NCBI GenBank assembly: GCA_000961575.1 | Contig: LADP01000042.1 | Location: 62,001-126,000, forward strand | DNA from: Peptococcaceae bacterium BRH_c8a | Lineage (GTDB): Bacteria; Bacillota; Desulfotomaculia; Desulfotomaculales; Desulfallaceae | Direction of reading: 5' to 3' | Length of the DNA stretch: 64,000 bases | Part shown: positions 29,512 to 50,461 of the stretch, in pieces | Layout: the number at the start of each line of letters is the position of its first letter | Numbering within the stretch: the first letter of the stretch is position 1 | Translations under genes and position numbers: made by a program | The notes under the pieces: generated by a model | Told to the model about the DNA's origin: nothing | Databases searched by the model: none | The model's input: only the letters and a program-made list of their open reading frames with translations

Positions 29512-31437
29512 TTATGACAGGCCGAGTTCGGTAAGTTTCTCTAATGTGGGGTGGCCGGTGGCAGGCTCCCAGCCCCGGGCGCGATAATATTCGGCCAGCG
29601 TGGCTTGCACTTTTTCCCGCTCCAGTTTACGGCCTGATGCGGGCCCTGCACCCACCGGTTCATCATAAAACCGGGCGGGGTAGTCGCTGTCCGCCGGCTT
29701 TTCGCCGTGCCGGATATTAAATAGTTTCTGCAAATTCCAGGTTCGTTCCCCGGCCTGCATAACTTCCTCAGCAGAAATTTCAAGGCCGGTCAAAGATGAA
29801 TACAACTCGGCAATCAGGGTGGGACCCACAGTATGCAGCACCGGCGGCCGGATGCACAGACCGGTGGAGTTGTAAACTGAAATTAAATCCTCGGACCACT
29901 TGGCCATTTTAGGTATGTCCACATCTTTGGTTTGCGGGTCGAATACCGCCTGCTTTAGTTTTTCAGGCATGTCCAGTTTTTCATACATTCCGTCCGGCAA
30001 GCCGAATTTTTCGGTGCGGTAAGGCACTGGGTTGTCATTGAAGCGCAGGTTTTCTACCGGGTTTCTGGTACGCAGGTGGTCGCCTCCGCGAATATTAGTG
30101 ATGTAACCCAAAATCCAGGTTGACCAGCGTCCCCGCGGATCCATCAAAAATGGTTCCAGACCTTTAACGTGCACAGCTTTATCAGCCGCGCCGGGCAACT
30201 GCCCCGATGCGCGTCGGGTACCTTCAGCCAGGGTGTCTCCAAGACCACGCCGGTGGGCGATGTCGTCCAGCAGCCGGAAAGTCCCTTCTTCGCTGCCCCA
30301 GGCCAGTTGGTATCCCAGTTCTTTTTCGCCCACGTGGCCATCCTGGTATAGCTGCATAGTCATGGCTACCGCGGCGGCAGCTGAAACCATGTCCAGTCCC
30401 AGTCGCTGGCAAATTTCGGTAAGCTTGGCAACGGCGGGCAGACCGCCTATATCACAGCCGGCCCCGAAACCAATTACCGGGGTGACTTCCATGTCTTTCA
30501 TCTTCAGACCGCTATAAGGGCCGTCTTTAACCTCTACCCAGTGGGCGCAGGCAATGGGGCAGGCGATGCAGGCCACGCCACGGTTGCTGTAGCGGGGCAC
30601 CTGCTTGCGGCTGCGGGTTTCCACCCAACCGTCGATAACGCCGGTTTGAAAGTTTCGACCTGGTAGGATGCCGAATTCTTGGTAGGGCAGGGTGACCAGC
30701 ATCGTGCCGAAACGTTCGAAGGGGCCGTAAAAAGGTGATGCGAATATGGCTTCACGGGTTGCAGTGACTGTTTTGATAAATTCTTTGACCCTGGCCACCC
30801 GGACAGGCCCGGTGCCGCGAACAGCAATGGCCTTGAGGTTTTTGGAGCCCATTACCGCTCCCAGACCGGTGCGGGCCCAGGCGTCGTAAGGCCCGTTTTC
30901 AATACTGGCAAAACGAACCAGGTTTTCACCGGCTGGCCCGATGGTGGCCACTTGGATATCCCGGTCGCCCAATTCAGTTTGCAATGCCGCGATGGTTTCC
31001 CAGGCGTCTTGGCCCCACAAGTGGTTGGCGGGGATAATACTAGCCTGATTATTGGTTATGGTAATGGTGACCGGTTCGGCTGCTTTACCCCGGATAATTA
31101 TCCCGTCATAACCTGCGTATTTAAGCTCACTGCCCCAATAGTTGCCGGAATTGGCGGTGCCAAAAAGGCCGGTGGCGGGGGATAAGGCTGAAGCTTCGGA
31201 GCGGCTGGCTGTAGGGACATTGGTGCCCACCAGCAAGCCCACGTTAAACGCCAGAACGTTATCCGGACCGAGGGGATCGGTACCCGGTGGTATTAGGTCG
31301 TAAAGCAGCCGGGCGTTAAAACCCGCGCCGGAAATGTAATTACGCTGCATTTCTTTATCTGGTGTAATCACGCCAATGTGTCCGCTAGTCAGGTCGATGT
31401 CCAGTATCTTGCCGGCGTATCCGTAAGTAGTTGTCAT
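29512..31437 (-). CDS. aor: Tungsten/molybdopterin aldehyde:ferredoxin oxidoreductase (AOR-1)
   Basis: The 641-residue AOR-family enzyme has an N-terminal domain (GYAGKILDIDLTSG, ISGAGFNARLLYDL, LKYAGYDGIIIRGKAAEP, IGPAGENLVRFASI) and a [4Fe-4S] site from CIACPIAC (CX2CX3C, near residue 288) plus a distant Cys in STGLCIR. It oxidises aldehydes to acids with ferredoxin, or the reverse. The ferredoxin gene upstream overlaps it by four bases and is the likely electron partner. It starts at an ATG behind GCGAGGTG. The substrate cannot be told from sequence. A different AOR lies at 45.4 kb. Confidence 0.92.
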   Translation of the reverse strand: MTTTYGYAGKILDIDLTSGHIGVITPDKEMQRNYISGAGFNARLLYDLIPPGTDPLGPDNVLAFNVGLLVGTNVPTASRSEASALSPATGLFGTANSGNYWGSELKYAGYDGIIIRGKAAEPVTITITNNQASIIPANHLWGQDAWETIAALQTELGDRDIQVATIGPAGENLVRFASIENGPYDAWARTGLGAVMGSKNLKAIAVRGTGPVRVARVKEFIKTVTATREAIFASPFYGPFERFGTMLVTLPYQEFGILPGRNFQTGVIDGWVETRSRKQVPRYSNRGVACIACPIACAHWVEVKDGPYSGLKMKDMEVTPVIGFGAGCDIGGLPAVAKLTEICQRLGLDMVSAAAAVAMTMQLYQDGHVGEKELGYQLAWGSEEGTFRLLDDIAHRRGLGDTLAEGTRRASGQLPGAADKAVHVKGLEPFLMDPRGRWSTWILGYITNIRGGDHLRTRNPVENLRFNDNPVPYRTEKFGLPDGMYEKLDMPEKLKQAVFDPQTKDVDIPKMAKWSEDLISVYNSTGLCIRPPVLHTVGPTLIAELYSSLTGLEISAEEVMQAGERTWNLQKLFNIRHGEKPADSDYPARFYDEPVGAGPASGRKLEREKVQATLAEYYRARGWEPATGHPTLEKLTELGLS

Positions 31438-39351: not shown

Positions 39352-40554
39352 TTATAAGCTTGGTTCTACCAGGTCGAAACAGCGTTTATAAATCCATTCG
39401 TAACCTTTTACGTCAATATCTCGCGGGTTACCTACTGTTTGCGGGTCGTTAAAAGCTTCCTTGGCCAGTCGGGGAATCATGTCTTCGGGTACACCCTGAT
39501 CGGCCAAGCTGGGAATGCAAAGGTCATCAACCAGTTCGTAAACAGCCAGTACGGCTTCCTTGGCGGCTTCGTCCACAGACATGCCGAACGTATTTACTCC
39601 CATAGCCTGGGCAATACGAGCAAATTTTTCGGGCTCGCCCATCCAGTTAAATTCCATTACCGGCCCCAGCATGGTGGCGACACAAGGTCCGTGGGCTATA
39701 GGAATAATGCCGCCTAAGGTTTGGGACATGGCATGGGCGGCACCCGCCGATTCGCTGCCGTAAGATAAACCGGCCAGCATGGCGGCTTGGGACATAGCGT
39801 ACCGGGCTTCTATATCCTGCCCGTTGGCAAAGGCCCGCCTGAGGTACTTGGCACAGTATTCGATAGCCAGCAAGGCCACAGAGTCCGTAATGGGCTGGGC
39901 GTAATGACAGGTGTAACATTCAATGGCATGGCACAACGCATCCATGCCGGTTCCAGCGGTAATAAGGGGCGGCATGGACACATGCAGTTCCGGGTCAATA
40001 ACCGTCAAATGAGCGGCAATGAGAGGGCCGCCGGTATTAAATTTGAATTGCCGGGCCGGATCTGTAATCACCGCCCACTGGGTTACCTCGCTGCCCGTAC
40101 CCGCAGTGGTAGGGACAGTGGTTAACGGTGGGATTCGTTTGCTGAGTGGCTTTTTGCCATCAGCGCACTCATATTCCAACACTGGCTCTCCGTGGGCAAC
40201 TTCTACCCCGATGGCTTTGGCGGTATCCATGGAACTGCCGCCACCAACTGCTAAAAGGCCATTGCAATTATTGCCCAGATATATTTTAGTTCCTGCAGCT
40301 ACTACCTCCAGCGGTGGGTTGGCCACGACGCCATCGTATAGCACAAATGAAACGCCGGCTTTATTAAGACTATCCACAACCGGGTCAATCAAACCGGCCG
40401 CACATACTCCTTTGTCGGTAACCACAAGAAGCTTGTCTACACCCAGGTTTTTAACTTCCTCACCCAGATATTGAACCGCTCCGATACCGTGTTTAACCGC
40501 TGTGGGCATCTCAAATCCCTTTAATCTGTTCATGCGCTCAAAACGCATATGCAA
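39352..40554 (-). CDS. Iron-containing (type III) alcohol dehydrogenase, GbsB-like by context
   Basis: The 400-residue Fe-ADH has the NAD-binding GGGSSMDTAKAI (about 101-112), PTTAGTGSEVTQWAVI (about 149-165), then metal ligands in GMDALCHAIECYTC and SAGAAHAMSQTLGG...IAHGPC. It oxidises an alcohol to the aldehyde, or the reverse, with NAD. It is divergent from a GbsR-like regulator, the arrangement of gbsB (choline dehydrogenase) and gbsR in Bacillus, with a betaine transporter beyond. Choline is therefore one possible substrate, ethanol another. The start is TTG at 40554 or ATG at 40548. Confidence 0.9.
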   Translation of the reverse strand: MHMRFERMNRLKGFEMPTAVKHGIGAVQYLGEEVKNLGVDKLLVVTDKGVCAAGLIDPVVDSLNKAGVSFVLYDGVVANPPLEVVAAGTKIYLGNNCNGLLAVGGGSSMDTAKAIGVEVAHGEPVLEYECADGKKPLSKRIPPLTTVPTTAGTGSEVTQWAVITDPARQFKFNTGGPLIAAHLTVIDPELHVSMPPLITAGTGMDALCHAIECYTCHYAQPITDSVALLAIEYCAKYLRRAFANGQDIEARYAMSQAAMLAGLSYGSESAGAAHAMSQTLGGIIPIAHGPCVATMLGPVMEFNWMGEPEKFARIAQAMGVNTFGMSVDEAAKEAVLAVYELVDDLCIPSLADQGVPEDMIPRLAKEAFNDPQTVGNPRDIDVKGYEWIYKRCFDLVEPSL

Positions 40555-40591
40555 AGTATCTCCCCCAATTCAATTTAGTTAATTTATAATG

Positions 40592-40607
40592 TTTAATACT
40601 TTTTAAA
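40592..40607. promoter_or_regulatory. Operator-like sequence at the alcohol dehydrogenase promoter
   Basis: TTTAATACTTTTTAAA differs at only two of 16 bases from TTTAATACATATTAAA at 41446-41461, upstream of the transporter operon. It sits just downstream of the -10 box of the dehydrogenase promoter, over the predicted start site, a normal place for a repressor. Confidence 0.6.
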
Positions 40608-40636
40608 TTGTAACACAAATAAAAAAGTCTGTTCAA
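40607..40636 (-). promoter_or_regulatory. Sigma-A promoter of the alcohol dehydrogenase gene
   Basis: On the minus strand TTGAAC (40636-40631) is followed after 18 bases by TACAAT (40612-40607). Predicted start near 40600, about 45 bases before the gene. Confidence 0.65.
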
Positions 40637-40693
40637 CCTGGAAATTTGGCCAAATATGATTAAAAACACGGTAATTCCGATTAAGAATAAGCG

Positions 40694-40722
40694 TTTACAT
40701 TATTTCTTTTGTATTATATAAT
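40694..40722 (+). promoter_or_regulatory. Sigma-A promoter of the GbsR-like gene
   Basis: TTTACA (40694-40699) and a perfect TATAAT (40717-40722) are separated by 17 bases. Confidence 0.75.
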
Positions 40723-40757
40723 TTAAATAATCTAAACAGCGAATGTGCTTGGTGTTT

Positions 40758-40785
40758 ATTTATAAATCTTTGCTTATTTATAAAA
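40758..40785. promoter_or_regulatory. Inverted repeat in the leader of the GbsR-like gene
   Basis: ATTTATAAAT, eight bases, then ATTTATAAAA form a near-perfect inverted repeat. It lies about 30 bases after the predicted transcription start and just before the ribosome site, so it may serve autorepression or mask the start as an RNA hairpin. Confidence 0.5.
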
Positions 40786-40803
40786 TTGAGAGGTATGAGC
40801 GGT

Positions 40804-41394
40804 ATGGATAACAACGAATCCGGTAACATCAAAAACTTTACCAGCACTGATCCCGAAGCGGTGAAAGTAAACCATGCCAGGGACAAAGTTATTAATGGCA
40901 TGGCTGAAACAATGGATTTATATGGTGTTACCGCTTCCATCGGTCGCCTGTATGGGACGCTTTATTTTCAACAAAACCCTATGACACTAGATGAAATGAA
41001 GGATGAACTGGGCATGAGTAAACCAAGCATGTCCCTGGCGGTACGCTCCCTTTTGGAGATGAAAGTGGTACAAAAGGTCTGGCAGAAGGGGACACGCAGA
41101 GACCTTTACGTGGCTGAAAAGGACTTTTTCAAGTTTTTTCAGGTTTTTTTCTCAACCAAATGGAAGCGGGAAATTGAGGTTAACCTGCAGTCTACTAAGG
41201 AAGCGTCAGAGGAATTACAGGCGGTACTGAGTGACCCGAATCTTCAATTGACACCGGAAAAAAAGCAGGAAATTGAAACATATAAAAAGCAAATTGACGA
41301 CTCCAGGGTTTATTATCACTGGTTGGGTGAACTGGTAAAAAACCTGGAAAGCGGGCGGTTATTTGAATTAATACCCCCAACCAAAGTAGACTGA
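40804..41394 (+). CDS. gbsR: GbsR-like MarR-type regulator
   Basis: The product is about 196 residues. It has a MarR/winged-helix domain (about 25-110) with ASIGRLYGTLYFQQNPMTLDEMKDELGMSKPSMSLAVRSLLEMKVVQKVWQKGTRRDLYVAE. The GRLYGTL motif and the C-terminal helical part (about 110-196) are the GbsR/YvaV/OpcR plan. In Bacillus GbsR binds choline and controls gbsAB and opuB. The ATG at 40804 has a better distance to GAGAGG than the earlier starts. It stands between the alcohol dehydrogenase and the betaine transporter genes. Confidence 0.85.
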   Translation: MDNNESGNIKNFTSTDPEAVKVNHARDKVINGMAETMDLYGVTASIGRLYGTLYFQQNPMTLDEMKDELGMSKPSMSLAVRSLLEMKVVQKVWQKGTRRDLYVAEKDFFKFFQVFFSTKWKREIEVNLQSTKEASEELQAVLSDPNLQLTPEKKQEIETYKKQIDDSRVYYHWLGELVKNLESGRLFELIPPTKVD

Positions 41395-41401
41395 TTCCCT
41401 A

Positions 41402-41436
41402 AACCCTCTGCAAGAACCAAGGGGGTTTTATATTTT
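41402..41436 (+). terminator. Terminator of the GbsR-like gene
   Basis: AAACCCTC pairs with GGGGGTTT (one mismatch), followed by TATATTTTA. Confidence 0.65.
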
Positions 41437-41440
41437 ATTA

Positions 41441-41469
41441 ATACATTTAATACATATTAAATGTATAAT
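41441..41469. promoter_or_regulatory. Operator-like palindrome overlapping the transporter operon promoter
   Basis: ATACATTTAA-TACATA-TTAAATGTAT is a perfect 10-bp inverted repeat (41441-41466). It contains TTTAATACATATTAAA, shared with the alcohol dehydrogenase promoter. A TATAAT (41464-41469) overlaps its right end. No good -35 box is visible. A leader of about 220 bases without a gene separates it from proX. Confidence 0.65.
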
Positions 41470-41695
41470 ACAGAAAACACATGGATGTTCGGGTTAACAG
41501 CACTTATATAGGCAATATAAACAATATTCAACTTTGACTTACTAGCTCGTTCATGGTTTTATTTAAAAGGCAGAGATTTTGTCAGAGGGGTGGGGGTAAC
41601 AACTTATTATAACAGTATCAGTTGCTAGTAGCATTAATTTAAACAATTTAAAAATGTTGTAAATGTGCCACAATATGAAGGGGGAATTCAAGCAA

Positions 41696-42721
41696 GTGAG
41701 TAGTAAAAAGAGTTTGGCCATGATATTAGTTATCGCATTAGCCGCGGGAATTATGTTACTAACCACAGCATGTAGTTCAGGTGAAGAACAAGCGACGGAT
41801 AGCAAAACAAAGGAAACCATTATTTTTGCCGATGCCGGGTGGGATAGCATTCGCCTGCATAATGAGATAGCCGGCATTATACTCCGGGAAGGTTATGGTT
41901 ACAAAACCGATGTCATCCCTGGTGGGGAACCTTCTTCACTAATGGGCATTAGTACCGGGGACATAGACGTGTACATGGAAATTTGGACGGGCAATGATAT
42001 CGACAATTACAACAAACTTTTGGCAGACGGGGACATTATTGAGCTGGCCTTAAATTTTGATGACAACGCCCAAGGCCTCTACGTGCCCACATACGTTATT
42101 GAAGGTGACCCGGACAGGGGTATTGAGCCAATGGCTCCGGATCTGAAAACTATCCACGACCTGCCCCAGTACTGGGAATTGTTTAAAGACCCTGAACAGA
42201 CCAGTAAAGGCAGGATTTACGGTTCCATACCCGGCTGGTTTGCCGATGAGGTGCTGCAGGCCAAATACGAAAACTACGGTCTGAATGAAACCTTTAACTA
42301 CTTCCAACCGGGCTCCGATACCGCTCTGGCCGCATCGATGACCAAGGCCATTGAAGCTGGTGAGCCGTGGGTGGGATATTATTGGGAACCAACCTGGATT
42401 TCCGGTATGTATGATATCACCTTGCTTGAAGATGAGCCGTACAGCGATGAGCTTTGGAGTGACGGATTCCGTTGTGAATACCCGTCGCAGCGACTTACTA
42501 TTGCCGTCCAGAACCAACTGCCCGATCAAGCTCCCGATGTCACGGAATTCTTAAGTAATTACCAAACCAGCAGTGCACTGGTTGGCGAAGCACTGGCCTA
42601 TATGCAGGACAACGGTGCTACCAACGAAGAAACGGCGGTCTGGTTCTTGAAAGAAAAAGAAGCACTTTGGACTGCTTGGGTACCTGCAGAGGTGGCTGAG
42701 AAGGTAAAAGAGGCCATTTAA
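41696..42721 (+). CDS. proX: Glycine betaine-binding lipoprotein (ProX/OpuAC type)
   Basis: The product is about 341 residues. A lipoprotein signal ends in LLTTACSSG (Cys near residue 26). The OpuAC-type binding domain has FADAGWDSIRLHNEIAGIIL, MEIWTGN, GSIPGWFADEV, WVGYYWEPTWISGMYDITLLED and C-terminal FLKEKEALWTAWVP. The Trp-rich stretches supply the cation-pi box for a trimethylammonium group. It captures betaine or a similar osmoprotectant outside the membrane. The GTG start behind AAGGGGG gives a normal signal peptide. Confidence 0.9.
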   Translation: MSSKKSLAMILVIALAAGIMLLTTACSSGEEQATDSKTKETIIFADAGWDSIRLHNEIAGIILREGYGYKTDVIPGGEPSSLMGISTGDIDVYMEIWTGNDIDNYNKLLADGDIIELALNFDDNAQGLYVPTYVIEGDPDRGIEPMAPDLKTIHDLPQYWELFKDPEQTSKGRIYGSIPGWFADEVLQAKYENYGLNETFNYFQPGSDTALAASMTKAIEAGEPWVGYYWEPTWISGMYDITLLEDEPYSDELWSDGFRCEYPSQRLTIAVQNQLPDQAPDVTEFLSNYQTSSALVGEALAYMQDNGATNEETAVWFLKEKEALWTAWVPAEVAEKVKEAI

Positions 42722-42788
42722 TTAGCAATAATCAAGTCGCCTAAACAGACAACTTGCTACAGAACTTTAAGTTGAGAGTACGCATTGA

Positions 42789-42839
42789 AGGGGGTTAGGT
42801 TGCAGTTGCTGTAAATATCCTTTTATAGTCACTGCAACC
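42789..42839 (+). promoter_or_regulatory. Hairpin between proX and proW that follows a displaced ribosome site
   Basis: GGTTGCAGT (42798-42806) and ACTGCAACC (42831-42839) form a perfect 9-bp stem. The only strong ribosome site, AAGGGGG (about 42788-42794), lies before the stem, and the proW ATG lies 8 bases after it. Folding would bring the site close to the start. Within the stem a TTG follows the ribosome site at normal distance but stops after four codons. Confidence 0.55.
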
Positions 42840-42847
42840 GCTGTTAC

Positions 42848-43699
42848 ATGGATAGTTTCCCTGCATCGATAAGGTTTGAACTTGGTGTTTACGTAGACAT
42901 TTTTGTTAAGTGGCTGTACACCAATTTCGGTGATTTTTTTGACGCCGTCAGCAGTGTTGTTTTGTGGCTGATGGTTAATATCGAAAATATATTGCTTTGG
43001 CTGCCCTGGTGGTCGGTATTAATTATTGTTTTACTTCTAGGCTGGCGTTTTGTTTCGCCTATTGCCGGTGCCATTTTTGCACTGATGTTAGTACTGGTGG
43101 GATCGTTTGGTTACTGGGACCACATGTTGTATACCCTGGCCATTGTTATGGCTTCGGTGGTGATATCCCTGGTCATCGGGATTCCGATTGGCATTTTAAT
43201 GGCTTATAGTACCCATGCCCAGTCAGTGATGCGACCGATCCTGGACTTTATGCAGACCATGCCCAGTCTTGTGTACTTGATTCCGGCCATCCTGTTTTTC
43301 GGCCTGGGCAAGGTGCCGGGGGTTTTTGCCACCACTATTTATGCCATTCCCCCGGTAATCAGGTTGACCGATATGGGTATTCGTCAGGTGTCCAAGGAAA
43401 TGGTCGAAGCCGCCGTATCCTTTGGCTCAAGTTCATGGGATATATTGACCAAGGTGCAATTGCCCCAGGCACTGCCCGCTATTATGGCCGGAATTAACCA
43501 GACTACTATGATGGCCATTTCGATGGTCGTAATTGCCTCCATGATTGGTGTTAAGGGGTTGGGCATGGAAGTTTTAATCGGCATTCAGCGGATCGATGTG
43601 GGGCGAGGGTTTGAGGCCGGTCTGGGTATTGTAATCATCGCAATCATCATGGACAGAATTTCGCAGGGGGTTGCCAACCGTTTCAAGATTCCCAGTTAA
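42848..43699 (+). CDS. proW: Glycine betaine ABC transporter permease (ProW/OpuAB type)
   Basis: The 283-residue permease has about seven hydrophobic segments. The ABC permease contact loop (EAA motif) is KEMVEAAVSFGSSSWDILTKVQLPQALPAIMAGINQTTMMAISM. The N-terminal 60 residues include an amphipathic helix, as in ProW and OpuAB. It forms the channel with two copies and works with ProX and ProV. There is no ribosome site directly before the ATG; see the hairpin upstream. Confidence 0.92.
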   Translation: MDSFPASIRFELGVYVDIFVKWLYTNFGDFFDAVSSVVLWLMVNIENILLWLPWWSVLIIVLLLGWRFVSPIAGAIFALMLVLVGSFGYWDHMLYTLAIVMASVVISLVIGIPIGILMAYSTHAQSVMRPILDFMQTMPSLVYLIPAILFFGLGKVPGVFATTIYAIPPVIRLTDMGIRQVSKEMVEAAVSFGSSSWDILTKVQLPQALPAIMAGINQTTMMAISMVVIASMIGVKGLGMEVLIGIQRIDVGRGFEAGLGIVIIAIIMDRISQGVANRFKIPS

Positions 43700-43721
43700 T
43701 GCCTATACCGCGAGTAATTAA

Positions 43722-43751
43722 TCGGGCACCCGCAAGGCGTGCCCCTACGAT
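43722..43751. repeat. Short REP-like hairpin between proW and proV
   Basis: GGGCACCCGCAAGGCGTGCC forms a stem with loop CGCAAGG, followed by CCCTACGAT. This sequence is a widespread small palindrome. It lies in an 83-bp gap inside the operon and may tune mRNA stability. Confidence 0.55.
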
Positions 43752-43782
43752 TTTGTAGCAAATAGAAAGTGGGAGACAGAGC

Positions 43783-44955
43783 ATGCCGGTAAAAATAGAA
43801 GTAAAAAATTTGACAAAAATCTTTGGCAAACACCCCAAATCGATCCTGGACAAAGTTAATCAGGGGTGGTCTAAAGAAAAAGTTTTAGCCGAGACCGGCC
43901 ACACCGTGGGTATCAGAAACGCTTCATTCCAGGTCCACGAAGGCGAAGTATTCGTAATCATGGGTCTCTCCGGCAGCGGCAAGTCAACGCTAATCAGGTG
44001 CCTAAACCTGCTTAATAAACCTACGTCCGGGGAGATCTACGTGGACGGGGAAAATATCCTGGACTACGACAAGAAACAGCTGAAGAAATTCCGCCAGGAA
44101 AAACTGGCCATGGTGTTTCAGCATTTTGGCTTGCTCAGCCACCGGACCGTCATCGGTAACGTAGAATACGGCCTTGAAGTAAGGAAAGTACCCCGGGAAG
44201 AAAGGCTGAGCATCGCCAGGCAGGCCATCGCCAATGCGGGGTTGGCCGGCTGGGAAGATAAAATGCCCAACGAACTCAGCGGCGGAATGCAACAGCGGGT
44301 GGGACTGGCCCGTGCTCTGGCCAACGACCCGGATATTCTATTGATGGACGAACCTTTTAGCGCCCTGGACCCGTTAATTCGCAGGGATATGCAGTATGAT
44401 TTAATGGAATTACAATCCCAACTGCAAAAGACCATTGTCTTTATTACCCACGATATTAACGAGGCCTTTAAAATCGGGGACCGGGTGGCCGTGATGAAAG
44501 ACGGGGTAATTGAACAAATCGGCACTCCTGAAGAACTGTTGGATGCGCCCGAGAGTGAATATATTGAGAACTTTGTACGGGATATCGACCGTTCGAAAGT
44601 GTATCAGGCCAAGCATGTGATGTTTAAAACTACTGTCTTGGTGACTATTAAACAGGGCCTCAAAACAGCCTTAAACGAAATGAAGACTAACGGTATTTCC
44701 AGCGTCTTTGTGGTTGATTCGGAAAGAAGGCTGCAGGGTATTATCACCATCGACGATACCGTGGCGGCGATTAAAGAGGGTAAGACATTAAGGGATATCC
44801 TGCGTGACGATTTCTTTACCACCGACACCGAGGCATCCTTACAGGATTTGATTCCCAAAGCCACAGATACCAAGTATCCACTGGCTGTAATCGATGAAAA
44901 CAACAAGCTGTTGGGTCTTATTTCACGTGTATCAGTGCTATCAGCTTTAGTATAG
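43783..44955 (+). CDS. proV: Glycine betaine ABC transporter ATPase with CBS domains (ProV/OpuAA type)
   Basis: The 390-residue protein has Walker A GLSGSGKST (about 64-72), signature LSGGMQQRVGLARAL, Walker B ILLMDEPFSALDP and a His switch ITHDINEA. A tandem CBS pair follows (about 275-390). In OpuA the CBS pair senses ionic strength through the membrane and gates transport. This supports an osmotic role. A ferredoxin gene follows within 36 bases. Confidence 0.95.
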   Translation: MPVKIEVKNLTKIFGKHPKSILDKVNQGWSKEKVLAETGHTVGIRNASFQVHEGEVFVIMGLSGSGKSTLIRCLNLLNKPTSGEIYVDGENILDYDKKQLKKFRQEKLAMVFQHFGLLSHRTVIGNVEYGLEVRKVPREERLSIARQAIANAGLAGWEDKMPNELSGGMQQRVGLARALANDPDILLMDEPFSALDPLIRRDMQYDLMELQSQLQKTIVFITHDINEAFKIGDRVAVMKDGVIEQIGTPEELLDAPESEYIENFVRDIDRSKVYQAKHVMFKTTVLVTIKQGLKTALNEMKTNGISSVFVVDSERRLQGIITIDDTVAAIKEGKTLRDILRDDFFTTDTEASLQDLIPKATDTKYPLAVIDENNKLLGLISRVSVLSALV

Positions 44956-44991
44956 ATGACATTTGGATTCGTAAATGGAGGTTTTAAGAAA

Positions 44992-45411
44992 TTGCGAACG
45001 GTAATTCATTGCAACTTTGACTTGTGTACCGGATGCGCTATTTGTCAGATGGCCTGTGCACAGGTTAAAACGGGGGGAACCAACCCCCGTTCGGCTTTAT
45101 TGGAGATTAAAAAAGAGGGTTTGATTTACCGGCCCGAAGTATGTGCTCAGTGTCAAAATGCTTTCTGTTTACAGGTGTGTTCCTTTGAGGCTATTTACCG
45201 AAATGATGAAAACAGGGTGCTCATCGACGCCGCTAAATGTACGGGGTGTGGGTTGTGCGTTGAAGCTTGCCAGATAAATATGGTGTCTCTTGACCAGCGG
45301 TATAAAAAGGCCATAAAATGTGATCTCTGCGGGGGCAACCCGGCCTGTGTGGAGTTTTGTCCCACCGGTGCTCTGGAAAAAATCACGCTGGGAGGGAATG
45401 CCGGTGCCTGA
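44992..45411 (+). CDS. Four-cluster ferredoxin-like subunit, partner of AOR-2
   Basis: The product is about 139 residues with four Cys groups: CTGCAICQMAC, CAQCQNAFCLQVC, CTGCGLCVEAC and CDLCGGNPACVEFC. These fit four [4Fe-4S] clusters of the DmsB/HycB ferredoxin class. A TTG start behind AATGGAGG is preferred to the ATG that abuts the proV stop. The gene overlaps the AOR-2 start by 8 bases, so the two form an enzyme/electron-carrier pair. It is twice the size of the AOR-1 partner and may pass electrons to another acceptor. Confidence 0.9.
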   Translation: MRTVIHCNFDLCTGCAICQMACAQVKTGGTNPRSALLEIKKEGLIYRPEVCAQCQNAFCLQVCSFEAIYRNDENRVLIDAAKCTGCGLCVEACQINMVSLDQRYKKAIKCDLCGGNPACVEFCPTGALEKITLGGNAGA

Positions 45412-47263
45412 TGGTTATATGAATAAGTTTTTGTTTGTCGATCTTACCTCGGGACACAGCAATGCAATTGAGGTGCCCAACTGGCTGCGGGATTATTTTA
45501 TCGGGGGCAAAGGGTATGGCATTAAGCTGCTTAACGACCTGGTGCCCCGGGGATGTGATCCTTTAAGCCCTGATAATGTGCTTATGTTTATGGCGGGGCC
45601 GCTCACCGGCACCCTGGCGCCCTCGATGCGGGCCTGTGTGGTTACTAAATCGCCGCTCACAGGTACTCTGCTGGACTCCTATTTCGGGGGTTCTTTCGGC
45701 CACGAGATTAAATATGCCGGGTATGACGGCATCATCATCACCGGCCGGGCCGCTGAGCCTGTATACCTGTGGGTTGACGACGGCAGGGTGGAAATCCGCC
45801 CGGCCGCTGGCATCTGGGGCATGGGTACTCTGGAGTCAAACCAGGCCATTAAAGAACAATTAAATGATCGTTCAGTTAAAATCGCCGGCATTGGGCCGGC
45901 CGGAGAGAACCTGGTGCGCTTCGCCCTAATTTCCTGTGAATATAACCGCCAGGCCGGGCGGGGCGGTGCTGGTGCAGTAATGGGTGCCAAAAACCTCAAG
46001 GCCGTGGCTTTAAGAGGTACCCAGTCGGTGCAGGTGTTTGATAGCGACGCTTTTCTGCAGGCTGTTAAAAAAGGTTACCAGGAGCTAAAGTCCAGCCCCG
46101 ATATTAAGGCGCTGACGGATGCCGGAACCGCTTCATCGGTGCCCTTTGCCAATGAAGTGGGTGTGTTACCCACGCGAAACTATTATGACGGTACTTTTGC
46201 CGGGGCCAACGAGATCAGTGATTTTGGGCAGAGCAAACATCTTTGGCTGCGCAGTGAAGCCTGTCCGGGCTGCCCGATACGTTGCAGTAAGGTGGGCTAT
46301 ATCCGCACCGGTCGATATCAAGGCACTGTTTCGGATATCGTGGAATATGAATCTGCCGCCATGCTGGGTTCAAACTTGGAAATTAGTGATATCAAGGCAG
46401 TGACATATCTAACGCACCTGTGCGATGAGCTGGGACTGGATAGTATGTCCACCGGCGGCGTGATTGGTTTTGCCATGGAAGCTGCGGAAAGAGGTCTCAT
46501 ACCGCTGGAAATTGAAGGGCAGCAGATAAAGTTCGGCAGTCCGCTGGCGGCAGAAAAATTAATGCAAGCCATTGCTTTGCGCCGTGGCGAACTGGGTCGC
46601 CTTTTGGCCCAAGGAGTACAGCGGGCGGCGGCGGAACTTGGTTCGGACGCCGAGGAATTTGCGGTGCATATCAAGGGCCTGGAAACACCGGCCTGGGGTC
46701 CTCGAGGCGCCACCGGGATTGCCCTGGCTTTGATGACCGCAGACCGGGGCGGTTGCCACCAGCGGGGGATGCCGTTGGGTGAAGACTTGAGCGGCGCTCT
46801 TTGGAATGATGAGCCCGTTGATCGGCTGGCCCTAACCGGTAAGGGCGAGATAGTAATCCACTACCAGAACTATCTGGCTGCGTTGGATACACTGGTCAAG
46901 TGTGACTTTGGGGCTTTCGGGATTCAGCCCCAGACTTATCTGGAGCTTTACCAGGCCTGCACCGGGCGGGATCTGGGCGGTGCAGACGGGCTGCAGCAGC
47001 TGGGAGCGAAAATCTGGAACCTGGGGCGGTTGTTCAATCTCAGGGAGGGGCTGGAGCCGCAGACGGATACGCTGCCGAAAAGGTTTACCCAGCCATTACC
47101 AAGCGGTCCGTGTCAGGGCCACCGGTTTAGCCCCGAGGATATGCAGGTAATGCTACAGGAGTATTACAGGCTTCGCTCCTGGAGTGCCGACGGTCGGCCC
47201 GGGCAGGAAATAATGAATAAACTTGGGTTATCTGATATGCAAACAATGTCAATAACTACTTAG
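45404..47263 (+). CDS. aor: Aldehyde:ferredoxin oxidoreductase (AOR-2) in the betaine transporter operon
   Basis: The product is about 619 residues. The AOR N-terminal domain has FVDLTSGHS, FIGGKGYGIKLLNDLVP, IKYAGYDGIIITGRAAEP and IGPAGENLVRFALI. The cluster motif is CPGCPIRC (CX2CX3C) with a later Cys in VKCDFGAFG. It oxidises an aldehyde to an acid with ferredoxin via a W- or Mo-bis-pterin. A GTG behind GGGAGGG gives the best start. It is the last gene of the proX-proW-proV-ferredoxin unit. The aldehyde may be betaine aldehyde (context) or a simple aldehyde. It is clearly different from AOR-1. Confidence 0.9.
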   Translation: MPDGYMNKFLFVDLTSGHSNAIEVPNWLRDYFIGGKGYGIKLLNDLVPRGCDPLSPDNVLMFMAGPLTGTLAPSMRACVVTKSPLTGTLLDSYFGGSFGHEIKYAGYDGIIITGRAAEPVYLWVDDGRVEIRPAAGIWGMGTLESNQAIKEQLNDRSVKIAGIGPAGENLVRFALISCEYNRQAGRGGAGAVMGAKNLKAVALRGTQSVQVFDSDAFLQAVKKGYQELKSSPDIKALTDAGTASSVPFANEVGVLPTRNYYDGTFAGANEISDFGQSKHLWLRSEACPGCPIRCSKVGYIRTGRYQGTVSDIVEYESAAMLGSNLEISDIKAVTYLTHLCDELGLDSMSTGGVIGFAMEAAERGLIPLEIEGQQIKFGSPLAAEKLMQAIALRRGELGRLLAQGVQRAAAELGSDAEEFAVHIKGLETPAWGPRGATGIALALMTADRGGCHQRGMPLGEDLSGALWNDEPVDRLALTGKGEIVIHYQNYLAALDTLVKCDFGAFGIQPQTYLELYQACTGRDLGGADGLQQLGAKIWNLGRLFNLREGLEPQTDTLPKRFTQPLPSGPCQGHRFSPEDMQVMLQEYYRLRSWSADGRPGQEIMNKLGLSDMQTMSITT

Positions 47264-47458: not shown

Positions 47459-47485
47459 GAAAACAACAATAAACAATTAATTTTT

Positions 47486-47690
47486 CAGGTGCCCGCAAGG
47501 GGTAAAAGGGAACCGGGTGAGAATCCCGGGCGGTCCCGCCACTGTAACCGGTAGTCCACCTCGTAACCACCGTTTGTCGTCCTTTTGGGGCAAGGCAGGC
47601 GGGAAGGGAGGCGCGGACGCTATCCCGGAAGTCAGGAAACCTGCCTGGAAATGCCCACCACAACCTCGTGGATAAGGATGGTGTACGAGT
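47486..47690 (+). ncRNA. Cobalamin (adenosylcobalamin-type) riboswitch
   Basis: The leader shows the class's conserved parts in order: AGGTGCCCGCAAGG with GGTAAAAGGGAA, then GGTGAGAATCCC, the GGTCCCGCCACTGTAACCGG B12-box region, and a later GGAAGTCAGGAAACCTGCC arm. They fold around the cobalamin core. It is followed by a terminator hairpin at 47705-47744, so binding of B12 probably stops transcription before the thiC-like genes. A thiamine riboswitch, normal for real thiC, is absent. Confidence 0.93.
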
Positions 47691-47704
47691 GTACATGGAT
47701 TATG

Positions 47705-47744
47705 GAAAAGTCCATGCCGTAAAAGGCATGGGCTTTTTTTTTTC
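47705..47744 (+). terminator. Riboswitch-controlled intrinsic terminator
   Basis: CCATGCC (47712-47718) and GGCATGG (47725-47731) form a perfect stem followed by eleven Ts. An upstream CATGGA (about 47694-47699) can pair with TCCATG of the left arm and would act as antiterminator. Confidence 0.85.
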
Positions 47745-47806
47745 AGCAAGCCACAGGCCAATGTAATTTTTTGTATAGCAACTATAAAGCCAAAAGGAGG
47801 ATTTCA

Positions 47807-49105
47807 ATGACCCTGTTAAACAGTGCCCAGAAAGGAAAGACCACGCCGGAAATGGAACAGGTGGCGGCAAAGGAAGGAGTCGCACCGGAATTTATCAGGC
47901 AGGGGGTGGCCGAAGGCACAATTGTCATTCCACGCAATATCAACCGCAGCAACATTATCCCGATGGGGATAGGGACGGGCTTGCGCACCAAGGTAAGTGC
48001 CAGTGTGGGTATGTATGGAAGAGACGCGGAAATTGGTACTGAGATAAGAAAAGTCAAAGCAGCTTTAGAGGCAGGTACAGACTCCATCATGGATCTTAGC
48101 GTCAGCGGAGATATCGACAGCATGCGCCGGGAAACCCTGGCCACCGCTCCTACGCCGGTGGGGACTCTTCCTCTGTACCAGGCTATAGCCGAAGCGGCTG
48201 ATAAGCATGGCTCATCGGTCAACATGACGGTTGAAGACCTGTTTGAAGTTATTGAGCGTCAGGCTACCGACGGGGTTGATTTTTTGGCCTTGCACTGCGG
48301 CACCACCATGAGCGTGGTGGAACGGGCCAAGCGGGAGGGCCGAATAGACCCACTGGTTAGTTACGGCGGCTCCCACCTGATTGGGTGGATGATTTACAAC
48401 CAGAAAGAGAACCCGCTCTATGAGCATTATGACCGGGTGCTGGAAATTGCCCGCCGGCACGGTGCAACCATTAGTCTTGCTGACGGCATGAGACCGGGCT
48501 GCTTGGCCGATTCCCTAGACGGCGCACAGGTGGAGGAACTGGTGATTCTGGGCGAGCTGGTCAGGCGGGCCAGGGAAGCCGGGGTACAGGTAATGGTTAA
48601 AGGACCGGGCCATGTGCCTTTAAACCAAATTGAAGCAACCGTCAGGCTGCAGAAGAGCCTGTGCAAGGGAGCGCCTTACTTTGTCTTCGGCCCCGTAGTT
48701 ACCGACATAGCCGCGGGGTACGATCACATAAGCGCCGCCATCGGAGGTGCCTTAGCGGCCTGGACGGGGGCCGAGTTTATCTGTTATGTAACGGCCGCCG
48801 AACACATTGGTCTTCCTGATGTCGACCAGGTACGTGAAGGGGTGGTTGCCGCACGTATTGCCGCCCACGCCGCGGATTTGGCCAAAGGAATGCCGGGAGC
48901 TGCAGAATGGGATTTGCAGTTGTCCCGGGCCAGGAAGGAATTGGACTGGGAAAAGCAGATCGCCCTGGCCATAGATCCGAAACGGGCCGGGCTGCTGAGA
49001 AAAGAGCGGACCGGAGATTCTTCGTCGGCCTGCGCCATGTGCGGTAAGTACTGTGCGATGGAAGTGGTGTCACGGTATTTGGGCAGCGCCAAACAAGGGT
49101 GTTAA
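47807..49105 (+). CDS. bzaA: ThiC-paralogue radical SAM enzyme, BzaA/B type (5-hydroxybenzimidazole synthesis)
   Basis: The 432-residue protein of the ThiC family keeps VIPRNINRSN, MDLSVSGDIDSMRRETL, PVGTLPLYQ, metal-binding His in GPGHVP, YDHI and AAEHIGLP, and a C-terminal cluster motif CAMCGKYC (CX2CX3C; Escherichia ThiC has CX2CX4C). Usual ThiC residues are altered: NANIGTS is replaced by SASVGMYG, SLGDG by SLADG and EGPGHVP by KGPGHVP. With a cobalamin riboswitch upstream and a second paralogue downstream, it fits BzaA/BzaB, which make 5-hydroxybenzimidazole for B12 from AIR. Which of the two is BzaA is not certain. Confidence 0.75.
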   Translation: MTLLNSAQKGKTTPEMEQVAAKEGVAPEFIRQGVAEGTIVIPRNINRSNIIPMGIGTGLRTKVSASVGMYGRDAEIGTEIRKVKAALEAGTDSIMDLSVSGDIDSMRRETLATAPTPVGTLPLYQAIAEAADKHGSSVNMTVEDLFEVIERQATDGVDFLALHCGTTMSVVERAKREGRIDPLVSYGGSHLIGWMIYNQKENPLYEHYDRVLEIARRHGATISLADGMRPGCLADSLDGAQVEELVILGELVRRAREAGVQVMVKGPGHVPLNQIEATVRLQKSLCKGAPYFVFGPVVTDIAAGYDHISAAIGGALAAWTGAEFICYVTAAEHIGLPDVDQVREGVVAARIAAHAADLAKGMPGAAEWDLQLSRARKELDWEKQIALAIDPKRAGLLRKERTGDSSSACAMCGKYCAMEVVSRYLGSAKQGC

Positions 49106-49109
49106 CGTA

Positions 49110-49135
49110 TTCAGAATTCAGGAGTCAGAATTTCA
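49110..49135. repeat. Fragment of the AGGAGTCAG repeat family
   Basis: ATTCAGAATTCAGGAGTCAG lies between the two ThiC paralogues, related to the inverted repeat at 29415. It lies within the operon gap of 75 bases. Confidence 0.5.
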
Positions 49136-49180
49136 GAATAATTTGAGACGATAAAAATTAAAATAGCAGGGGTGCATAAC

Positions 49181-50461
49181 ATGACACAGTTATCGAAAGC
49201 CCGGGCGGGCAAAATTACTGCGGAGATGGAAATGGTAGCTGCTCGAGAAAACCTGGACGTGGAGTTTATCCGGGATGGAGTGGCGTCGGGTAGAATCGTT
49301 ATTCCTAAAAACATCAAGCGCAAGGAATTTAATTGCTGCGGCATCGGGCAGGGCCTTAGGATCAAGGTGAACGCTCTTATTGGCACATCTAGTGACCGGG
49401 ACAACATAGAAGTGGAAGCGCGCAAGCTGGCCATCGCCCAGGAGGCAGGGTGCGACGGCGTTATGGATTTGAGTACCGGCGGAAATATCGACGGCATGCG
49501 GCGGCAGACCCTGGCCCAGGCCGGCGTGCCGGTGGGCACCGTGCCGATTTACCAATGTGGCATTGAAGCCATTGAAAAACGGGGCAGTGTTGTGGCTATG
49601 ACGGACGAGGACATGTTTGCAGCCGTGGAAAAACAAGCAGCCCAGGGCGTTGATTTTATGGCTATCCACTGTGCTTTGAATTTCGACGTAATCAAGCGCC
49701 TCAAGGCTACCGGGCGGGTTACGGACGTGGTCAGCAGGGGCGGGGCGTTCCTGACGGGCTGGATGCTGCACAACAACAAAGAAAACCCTTTATATGAGCA
49801 ATTTGACCGCTTACTGAAGATTTTAAAAGCTTATGACGTGACGCTTAGCCTGGGGGATGCGATACGACCCGGTTCCACCGCCGACTCACTGGACGGGGCA
49901 CAATTGCAGGGTTTGATTATCGCTGGCGAACTAGTAGCCAGAGCTCAGGCAGCCGGAGTGCAGGTTATGGTGGAAGGCCCCGGACATGTTCCCATGCACC
50001 ACGTGAAAACTACCATGCTGCTGCAGAAAAATTTATGTCAGGGCGCGCCCTATTTCATATTGGGCACCTTGGCCACTGATGTGGCGCCAGGGTACGACCA
50101 CATAACTTCAGCCATTGGCGGTGCCATAGCCGGAGCGGCCGGCGCAGACTTTATCTGCTACGTAACCCCAGCCGAGCATCTTGGGCTGCCTTCGGAGCAG
50201 GACGTCAAAGACGGGGTCATGGCGGCTCGGGTCGCCGCGCATGCGGCGGACCTGGCCAGGGGAAACAAACAAGCCTGGGCAAAGGACATGCAAATTGCCC
50301 GGGCCCGGGTTGCCCTTGACCTGGACAGGCAAATCGCCCTTGCCATAGACCCCGGAAAAGTTAAAGCAGCTTTAGGCAGCGGGAGCGGCGACCATTGCTG
50401 CGCCGTTTGCGGATCGGACTGCGCGGCGCAGGTGGCGGCCAAATACTTTGGTATTGCCTGA
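49181..50461 (+). CDS. bzaB: Second ThiC-paralogue radical SAM enzyme, BzaA/B type
   Basis: The product is about 426 residues. It keeps VIPKNIKRKE, NALIGTS, MDLSTGGNIDGMRRQTL, PVGTVPIYQ, LSLGDAIRPG, EGPGHVP, YDHI, YVTPAEHLGLP and a terminal CAVCGSDC (CX2CX3C). It is closer to classic ThiC than its neighbour, but has Ala in SLGDA and a shortened cluster spacing. Two ThiC-like genes in tandem behind a B12 riboswitch match bzaAB of acetogens such as Moorella and Eubacterium. The ATG follows CAGGGGTG. No bzaCDE methyltransferases or cobT follow, so unmethylated 5-hydroxybenzimidazole would be the product here. Confidence 0.75.
   Translation: MTQLSKARAGKITAEMEMVAARENLDVEFIRDGVASGRIVIPKNIKRKEFNCCGIGQGLRIKVNALIGTSSDRDNIEVEARKLAIAQEAGCDGVMDLSTGGNIDGMRRQTLAQAGVPVGTVPIYQCGIEAIEKRGSVVAMTDEDMFAAVEKQAAQGVDFMAIHCALNFDVIKRLKATGRVTDVVSRGGAFLTGWMLHNNKENPLYEQFDRLLKILKAYDVTLSLGDAIRPGSTADSLDGAQLQGLIIAGELVARAQAAGVQVMVEGPGHVPMHHVKTTMLLQKNLCQGAPYFILGTLATDVAPGYDHITSAIGGAIAGAAGADFICYVTPAEHLGLPSEQDVKDGVMAARVAAHAADLARGNKQAWAKDMQIARARVALDLDRQIALAIDPGKVKAALGSGSGDHCCAVCGSDCAAQVAAKYFGIA

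Follow-up and report, generated by a model that had tools for sequence, protein, structure and literature searches.

The window analysed here, a 64,000-nucleotide stretch of the genome of Peptococcaceae bacterium BRH_c8a (contig LADP01000042.1), holds at positions 39352–47263 a seven-gene cluster with a predicted role in the conversion of choline to glycine betaine. An iron-type alcohol dehydrogenase (ADH) gene, gbsB, stands divergent from the series cudC/gbsR-proX-proW-proV-polyferredoxin-aldehyde:ferredoxin oxidoreductase (AOR). The gene set, order and coordinates had been proposed earlier from the letters and open reading frames of the window (the sequence-only reading), and every gene was present where that reading had placed it. 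The product of gbsB (39352..40554, minus strand), which would carry out the first step from choline to betaine aldehyde, is an Fe-type choline dehydrogenase that scores 713.5 bits with the curated equivalog profile NF053866 (cut-off 550) and is 89% identical to its counterpart in Desulfoscipio geothermicus. The putative MarR-type choline-responsive repressor encoded by cudC/gbsR (40786..41394, plus strand) likewise belongs to its equivalog, NF047500 (234.4 bits, cut-off 218). Three plus-strand transporter genes follow: proX (41663..42721), coding for a quaternary-ammonium binding protein (PF04069, 177 bits) whose nearest solved structure is the glycine betaine/proline binding protein 7yle; proW (42848..43699), for a permease (PF00528; TIGR03416 at 285 bits, under the cut-off of 363); and proV (43783..44955), for an ATPase with two CBS domains (TIGR01186, 423 bits, cut-off 326.6). 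The profile models identify the first two as OpuAC-type and permease proteins and leave their exact substrate unsettled.

Downstream of proV, also on the plus strand, lies a worS/aorA-like gene for a polyferredoxin with four [4Fe-4S] motifs (44956..45411). A start 36 bp past proV, at 44992, had been suggested and is also possible, but the open reading frame already opens right at the proV stop. Sixteen cysteines of the protein are grouped in four clusters, with Cys19 in addition, and among its best PDB matches are tungsten AOR small subunits (9mqx_E, 8c0z_C and 6x6u_B). Since these are the best matches, the gene appears to encode a subunit of an enzyme and not a free-standing ferredoxin, which refines the 'four-cluster ferredoxin' proposed earlier. 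The final gene (45398..47263, plus strand; PF01314 and PF02730) codes for a WorL-type AOR large subunit, the proposed betaine aldehyde oxidoreductase of the second step. It most likely starts at 45398, so that the overlap with the ferredoxin gene noticed before would be 14 bp long. The protein has the AFOR_N and AFOR_C domains, the fold, the Fe-S cysteines and the second-shell Thr/Glu/His of the AOR/WOR family; its predicted model (mean pLDDT 92.9) matches 9mqx, 1aor and 9g7j over almost the full length (Z 53–54).

A tree of AORs was computed that took in the paralogues from the window's genome, relatives and solved enzymes, with PfASOR and CbGOR left out. The window AOR falls with the other clade members, at least 52% identical, in one group with a support of 100, and the polyferredoxin gene lies upstream of the AOR gene at nearly all clade loci read. 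PfAOR, the Clostridium autoethanogenum AOR, the Aromatoleum AOR and WOR1 cluster together apart from it (support 99), so the grouping with known acetaldehyde AORs that would have counted against the proposal was not seen. By score, PfAOR (433 bits) is closer to the window AOR than PfASOR (298 bits) is. The catalytic residues Thr244, Glu318 and His454 are kept (Thr243, Glu313 and His448 in the Pf enzyme), and M77, C80, Y95, F96, C180, N183, W433, Q455 and K501 are specific to the clade. As can be seen from the alignment to PfAOR, an aromatic trio, Tyr95, Phe96 and Trp433, occupies the pocket region: the positions of Pf Asn93, Ser94 and Tyr427 hold Tyr/Phe, Phe/Tyr and Trp/Phe in every clade member checked, including that of Natranaerobius, and the Tyr427 found in characterised broad-range AORs is thereby replaced by Trp433. 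Asn93 is located at the Mg ion of the cofactor, and Tyr427 belongs to the second shell around tungsten (PMC12096430), and in binding proteins trimethylammonium groups are typically held by aromatic cages (PMC6207618). Tyr95, Phe96 and Trp433 may form such a trimethylammonium cage in the clade enzymes. A second AOR-family gene in the window (29512–31437, minus strand) is 36% identical to the betaine-linked AOR and forms a long branch of its own in the tree.

A scan of the named genomes returned 15 AOR loci at 52% identity or more, followed by a gap in identity; GbsB or BetA is encoded at 13 of them, and one remaining locus stops at a contig edge and has a sister copy with GbsB. BetA and a GbsB of >40% identity are both absent from all 40 AOR loci read outside the clade. 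Where tested, the choline enzyme beside a clade AOR is either GbsB (601–727 bits, cut-off 550) or BetA (824–864 bits, TIGR01810 cut-off 732). Among 113 genomes of the class of the source organism, nine have a clade AOR and eight have GbsB above the cut-off of 550, all eight of which carry both side by side (Fisher p 1.8e-11, ignoring ancestry); in one of them, G088, the cluster is interrupted by a contig boundary, so that one contig holds GbsB with a partial ferredoxin and the AOR lies at the edge of a second one. The identical seven genes stand in the identical order in D. geothermicus (G014), and in G037 the arrangement is cudC / gbsB-ferredoxin-AOR / proVWX. The ninth AOR genome, G036, of the same genus as G037, carries CudC, ferredoxin-AOR and the choline dehydrogenase BetA together, in GbsB's stead. 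The first enzyme can, on this gene content, be exchanged beside one AOR clade, and the same holds for the second: in G016, from the window's own family, cudC-proXWV is retained, a betaine aldehyde dehydrogenase (BADH) gene stands exactly at the ferredoxin-AOR position, and betA adjoins a gbsB remnant. This BADH scores 754 bits (cut-off 668.6), and G016 is the sole genome above that cut-off among 15 tested. Outside this order, the haloalkaliphile Natranaerobius thermophilus bears CudC-ferredoxin-AOR-gbsB on a plasmid. Together with the betA-linked clusters of Desulfobacteria described below, these loci answer the synteny check that the sequence-only reading had proposed. In G086, G088, G107 and the JPNG bin (L139, L140, L141, L075 and L076), gbsB-ferredoxin-AOR lies near nucleotidyltransferase-like, APC-type permease and metallophosphoesterase-like genes, not all three being seen at every locus; the permease may import choline.

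In 389 genomes of Desulfobacteria, a clade AOR was found in 49, BetA in 61 and a BADH-type protein (at least 644 bits) in 19. The AOR gene lies within 5 kb of betA at 43 of 50 clade loci, and a BADH gene is near betA in 16 of 19. Of the 61 genomes with BetA, 43 have the AOR only, 16 BADH only, one both and one neither (Fisher p 1.4e-12, which ignores descent). Since AOR and BADH are almost never found together in choline-oxidising genomes, the enzyme swap is convincing. On the BetA tree the partner label changes between AOR and BADH about 3–4 times, so the exchange was not a single event; the BADH swap in G016 and the difference between G036 and G037, where GbsB and BetA are interchanged, are, judged by gene content, further exchange events. 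In-frame TGA codons in some Desulfobacteria AORs were considered as selenocysteine codons, a candidate that was rejected in favour of a normal stop read through (one locus compared, L072).

This one-for-one replacement bears on a rival reading in which the AOR is not the main second step. It could instead detoxify betaine aldehyde, or run backwards from betaine to the aldehyde. In some bacteria BetA can carry out both oxidation steps. AORs are moreover often detoxifying enzymes, and some reduce acids (PMC12096430). We nevertheless consider this unlikely, because the AOR takes the place of BADH one for one in BetA genomes and BADH occupies the identical site in G016, which fits the AOR as the main second step.

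The same data speak to a second alternative, in which methanol, ethanol or some other ordinary alcohol is the substrate of the ADH-AOR pair, whose place beside the transporter would be a coincidence. Methanol use by Desulfofundulus kuznetsovii through an ADH and an AOR is cited in a passage of PMC11505543, and AOR loci outside the clade adjoin generic Fe-type ADHs that are 33–35% identical to GbsB. However, the equivalog scores of GbsB and BetA, the presence of CudC, the linkage and the exclusion of BADH hold across two phyla; BetA is a flavin-type choline dehydrogenase and no kin of the Fe-type ADHs; and the AOR clade is separate from the known AORs. This alternative is thus highly improbable. 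The variant of it put forward in the sequence-only reading, ethanol or acetaldehyde oxidation with a chance adjacency, is disfavoured because the arrangement recurs in other families and phyla and so is not due to chance.

A gbsA elsewhere in the genome would have weakened the proposal. A TIGR01804 search of the window's genome found no BADH: a PutA-type fusion scored highest with 324 bits, followed by an MMSDH-like protein with 247 bits, both far below the cut-off of 668.6. The genome has 12 AOR-family matches but few aldehyde dehydrogenases, which comprise the PutA-type fusion, the MMSDH-like protein adjoining a xanthine dehydrogenase-type gene, and partial matches in frames of 900 and 444 codons. 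Two AOR-family genes (L123 and L124; G000:C1 and C11) that no branch length separates in the tree are found on two contigs of ~29 kb; the pair reflects either a recent duplication or a repeat in the assembly.

Two candidate operators for CudC were located, both listed without strand. Ahead of proX, a perfect 12-bp inverted repeat, ATACATTTAATA-CA-TATTAAATGTAT, spans 41441..41466; an imperfect copy of it, TGTTTAATACTTTTTAAATT, lies between gbsB and cudC at 40590..40609. In G014 and G016 a perfect palindrome stands at the corresponding site, one base pair of its arms being symmetrically changed, and a related motif is found at a like position between gbsB and cudC in both. Binding of Bacillus subtilis GbsR to an A/T-rich inverted repeat has been reported (PMC7396694), and the CudC protein retains a Phe-rich segment, DFFKFFQVFF, a six-Phe cage having been proposed for GbsR (PMC6207618). 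We predict that the two palindromes act as CudC operators. The repeat ahead of proX is among the top whole-genome matches to the motif, and no unique CudC regulon emerged from the genome-wide motif search. Its best additional match, at G000:C6:10437-10456, lies ahead of a gene for a TetR-type regulator and of an RND efflux operon and may be that regulator's own operator.

We conclude that the locus is very probably a choline-to-glycine-betaine unit in which a WorLS-type betaine aldehyde:acceptor oxidoreductase replaces GbsA/BetB. That the AOR performs the GbsA step was the main proposal of the sequence-only reading, and the comparative evidence of linkage, clade and BADH exclusion supports it. 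Gene content, family assignments, the clade, linkage, the mutual exclusion with BADH and the pocket signature were read directly; from these we infer the substrate of the AOR, the direction of the reaction, tungsten, the electron acceptor and the regulation. Choline, betaine or both would be taken up by the transporter of the locus. In the presence of choline, CudC would release the gbsB and proXWV-worS-AOR units, which it would otherwise repress through the A/T-rich palindromes. GbsB would oxidise choline to betaine aldehyde, and WorLS (the AOR with its polyferredoxin) would convert the aldehyde to glycine betaine in place of the unrelated NAD-linked GbsA/BetB, so that glycine betaine would be made without O2. 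The two electrons would travel along the four additional Fe-S clusters to an acceptor, which is most likely ferredoxin because the locus has no gene for an NAD-linked or bifurcating subunit.

Identical chemistry could also serve choline catabolism, with betaine as a fuel that is subsequently demethylated or reduced; the gain would then be nutrients and electrons instead of salt protection. Branched-chain-type ABC transporters adjoin the cluster in several Desulfobacteria (L072, L074, L077 and L080), raising the possibility that choline is a nutrient there, and elsewhere in the window's genome a pair of MttB-superfamily genes is accompanied by a ProVW-like transporter. The Bacillota form, on the other hand, includes CudC and ProXWV, the flanking DNA (up to 10 kb) of clade loci L067–L081 yielded no MttB homologue, and the MttB pair is only distantly related to the closest solved structures. 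A primarily nutritional role is possible but doubtful. Since the Bacillota locus combines the ProXWV transporter with the CudC regulator, its role would be osmoprotection; the osmoprotectant module of the sequence-only reading fits that form, but the transporters of Desulfobacteria indicate that osmoprotection is not necessarily the only role. At L077 (4875–13506, Desulfobacterales), a full branched-chain-type ABC transporter runs directly into ferredoxin-AOR-betA, which suggests an unusual choline or betaine importer. The region with the MttB-superfamily genes (L064, G000:C21:108500-128000) has ProV/ProW-like transporter genes and an AOR of 34% identity adjoined by a pterin-binding-type methyltransferase gene; it looks like a second quaternary-amine cluster.

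The substrate might also be another quaternary or amino alcohol, such as an arsenic or sulfur analogue of choline or dimethylethanolamine. The substrate range is unreadable from sequence, and a related pair exists in G066, where a GbsB-like protein (440 bits, below the cut-off) lies beside an AOR from outside the clade. The matches of GbsB, BetA and CudC above their equivalog cut-offs and the BADH swap make this decidedly unlikely. In G066 (L142, G066:C108) the GbsB-like ADH gene adjoins a ferredoxin gene and the AOR gene, whose product does not have the clade's signature residues; the contig has several more AOR matches, of which three contain a single in-frame stop.

Several points weigh against betaine synthesis through the AOR. 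Common descent inflates the association counts, and the independent exchanges are only few. One genome, G392, holds both AOR and BADH, and seven of the 50 clade loci in Desulfobacteria are without an adjoining choline enzyme, some of them at contig ends and two (G355 and G122) with betA on another contig. The AOR and gbsB genes of Natranaerobius are broken in the deposited sequence. The proposed aromatic cage is read off an alignment to PfAOR, and an AOR of broad range could accept betaine aldehyde without being specialised for it. Finally, the operator motif is not unique, given its perfect match before the TetR-type gene (L143, position ~5438).

The locus resembles gbsR-gbsAB of B. subtilis and cudCAB of Staphylococcus in that GbsR/CudC is divergent from GbsB, choline is converted to betaine in two steps and osmoprotectant uptake is encoded nearby; it differs in its second step, a WorLS-type AOR with polyferredoxin instead of the NAD-linked aldehyde dehydrogenase GbsA/CudA. 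Desulfobacteria and G036 share BetA (TIGR01810) and a common pathway with betAB, whereas in 43 of the 61 Desulfobacteria BetA genomes BetB is absent and polyferredoxin-AOR present. Among tungsten oxidoreductases, Class II consists of a WorL with a four-cluster WorS and, like the window locus, has no gene for an NAD-linked or bifurcating subunit; its members PfASOR and CbGOR act on taurine and glyceraldehyde-3-phosphate (PMC13328260), and the window locus differs from theirs in its partner genes. In a review, betaine aldehyde is described as an intermediate in the action of PfASOR on taurine (PMC12096430), a statement that is hard to understand chemically, given that taurine lacks methyl groups. 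AorABC of Aromatoleum aromaticum similarly pairs an AorA-like polyferredoxin with an AorB-like catalytic subunit, but the window locus is without a gene for the NAD subunit AorC, and its AOR belongs to another clade and has Trp at the Tyr427 equivalent.

Next to the cluster, at 47470–50461 of the window, a cobalamin riboswitch (96.5 bits) lies upstream of a pair of ThiC-like genes. With 754 bits, the second of these scores above the BzaB cut-off of 700, so that the pair is probably a unit of the bzaAB type for the B12 lower ligand and not one for thiamin synthesis.

In the open literature we found no claim linking betaine aldehyde or choline to tungsten or ferredoxin AORs other than the PfASOR remark. 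Both the pathway and the enzyme superfamily have been described before, and it is the combination and the implied enzyme function that appear to be new in the literature searched. For only 5 of the 92 tungsten oxidoreductase clades has a physiological role been defined (2026 survey, PMC13328260). A wider picture, to which we give even chances, is that of a dedicated betaine aldehyde lineage of tungsten AORs with a cation-pi cage beside the metal, which would recover low-potential electrons, make osmoadaptation tungsten-dependent and let choline be both protectant and fuel. If the proposed function is correct, one more tungsten oxidoreductase lineage would gain a physiological role, in a central stress pathway, and a textbook NAD enzyme would have been repeatedly exchanged for an unrelated Fe-S/pterin enzyme. 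It would explain how sulfate reducers with betA and without betB (the 43 genomes above) could finish betaine synthesis, and it would mend pathway annotation that calls betaine synthesis incomplete in AOR-bearing genomes. The choline-based salt tolerance of such anaerobes would then be predicted to need tungsten (or molybdenum).

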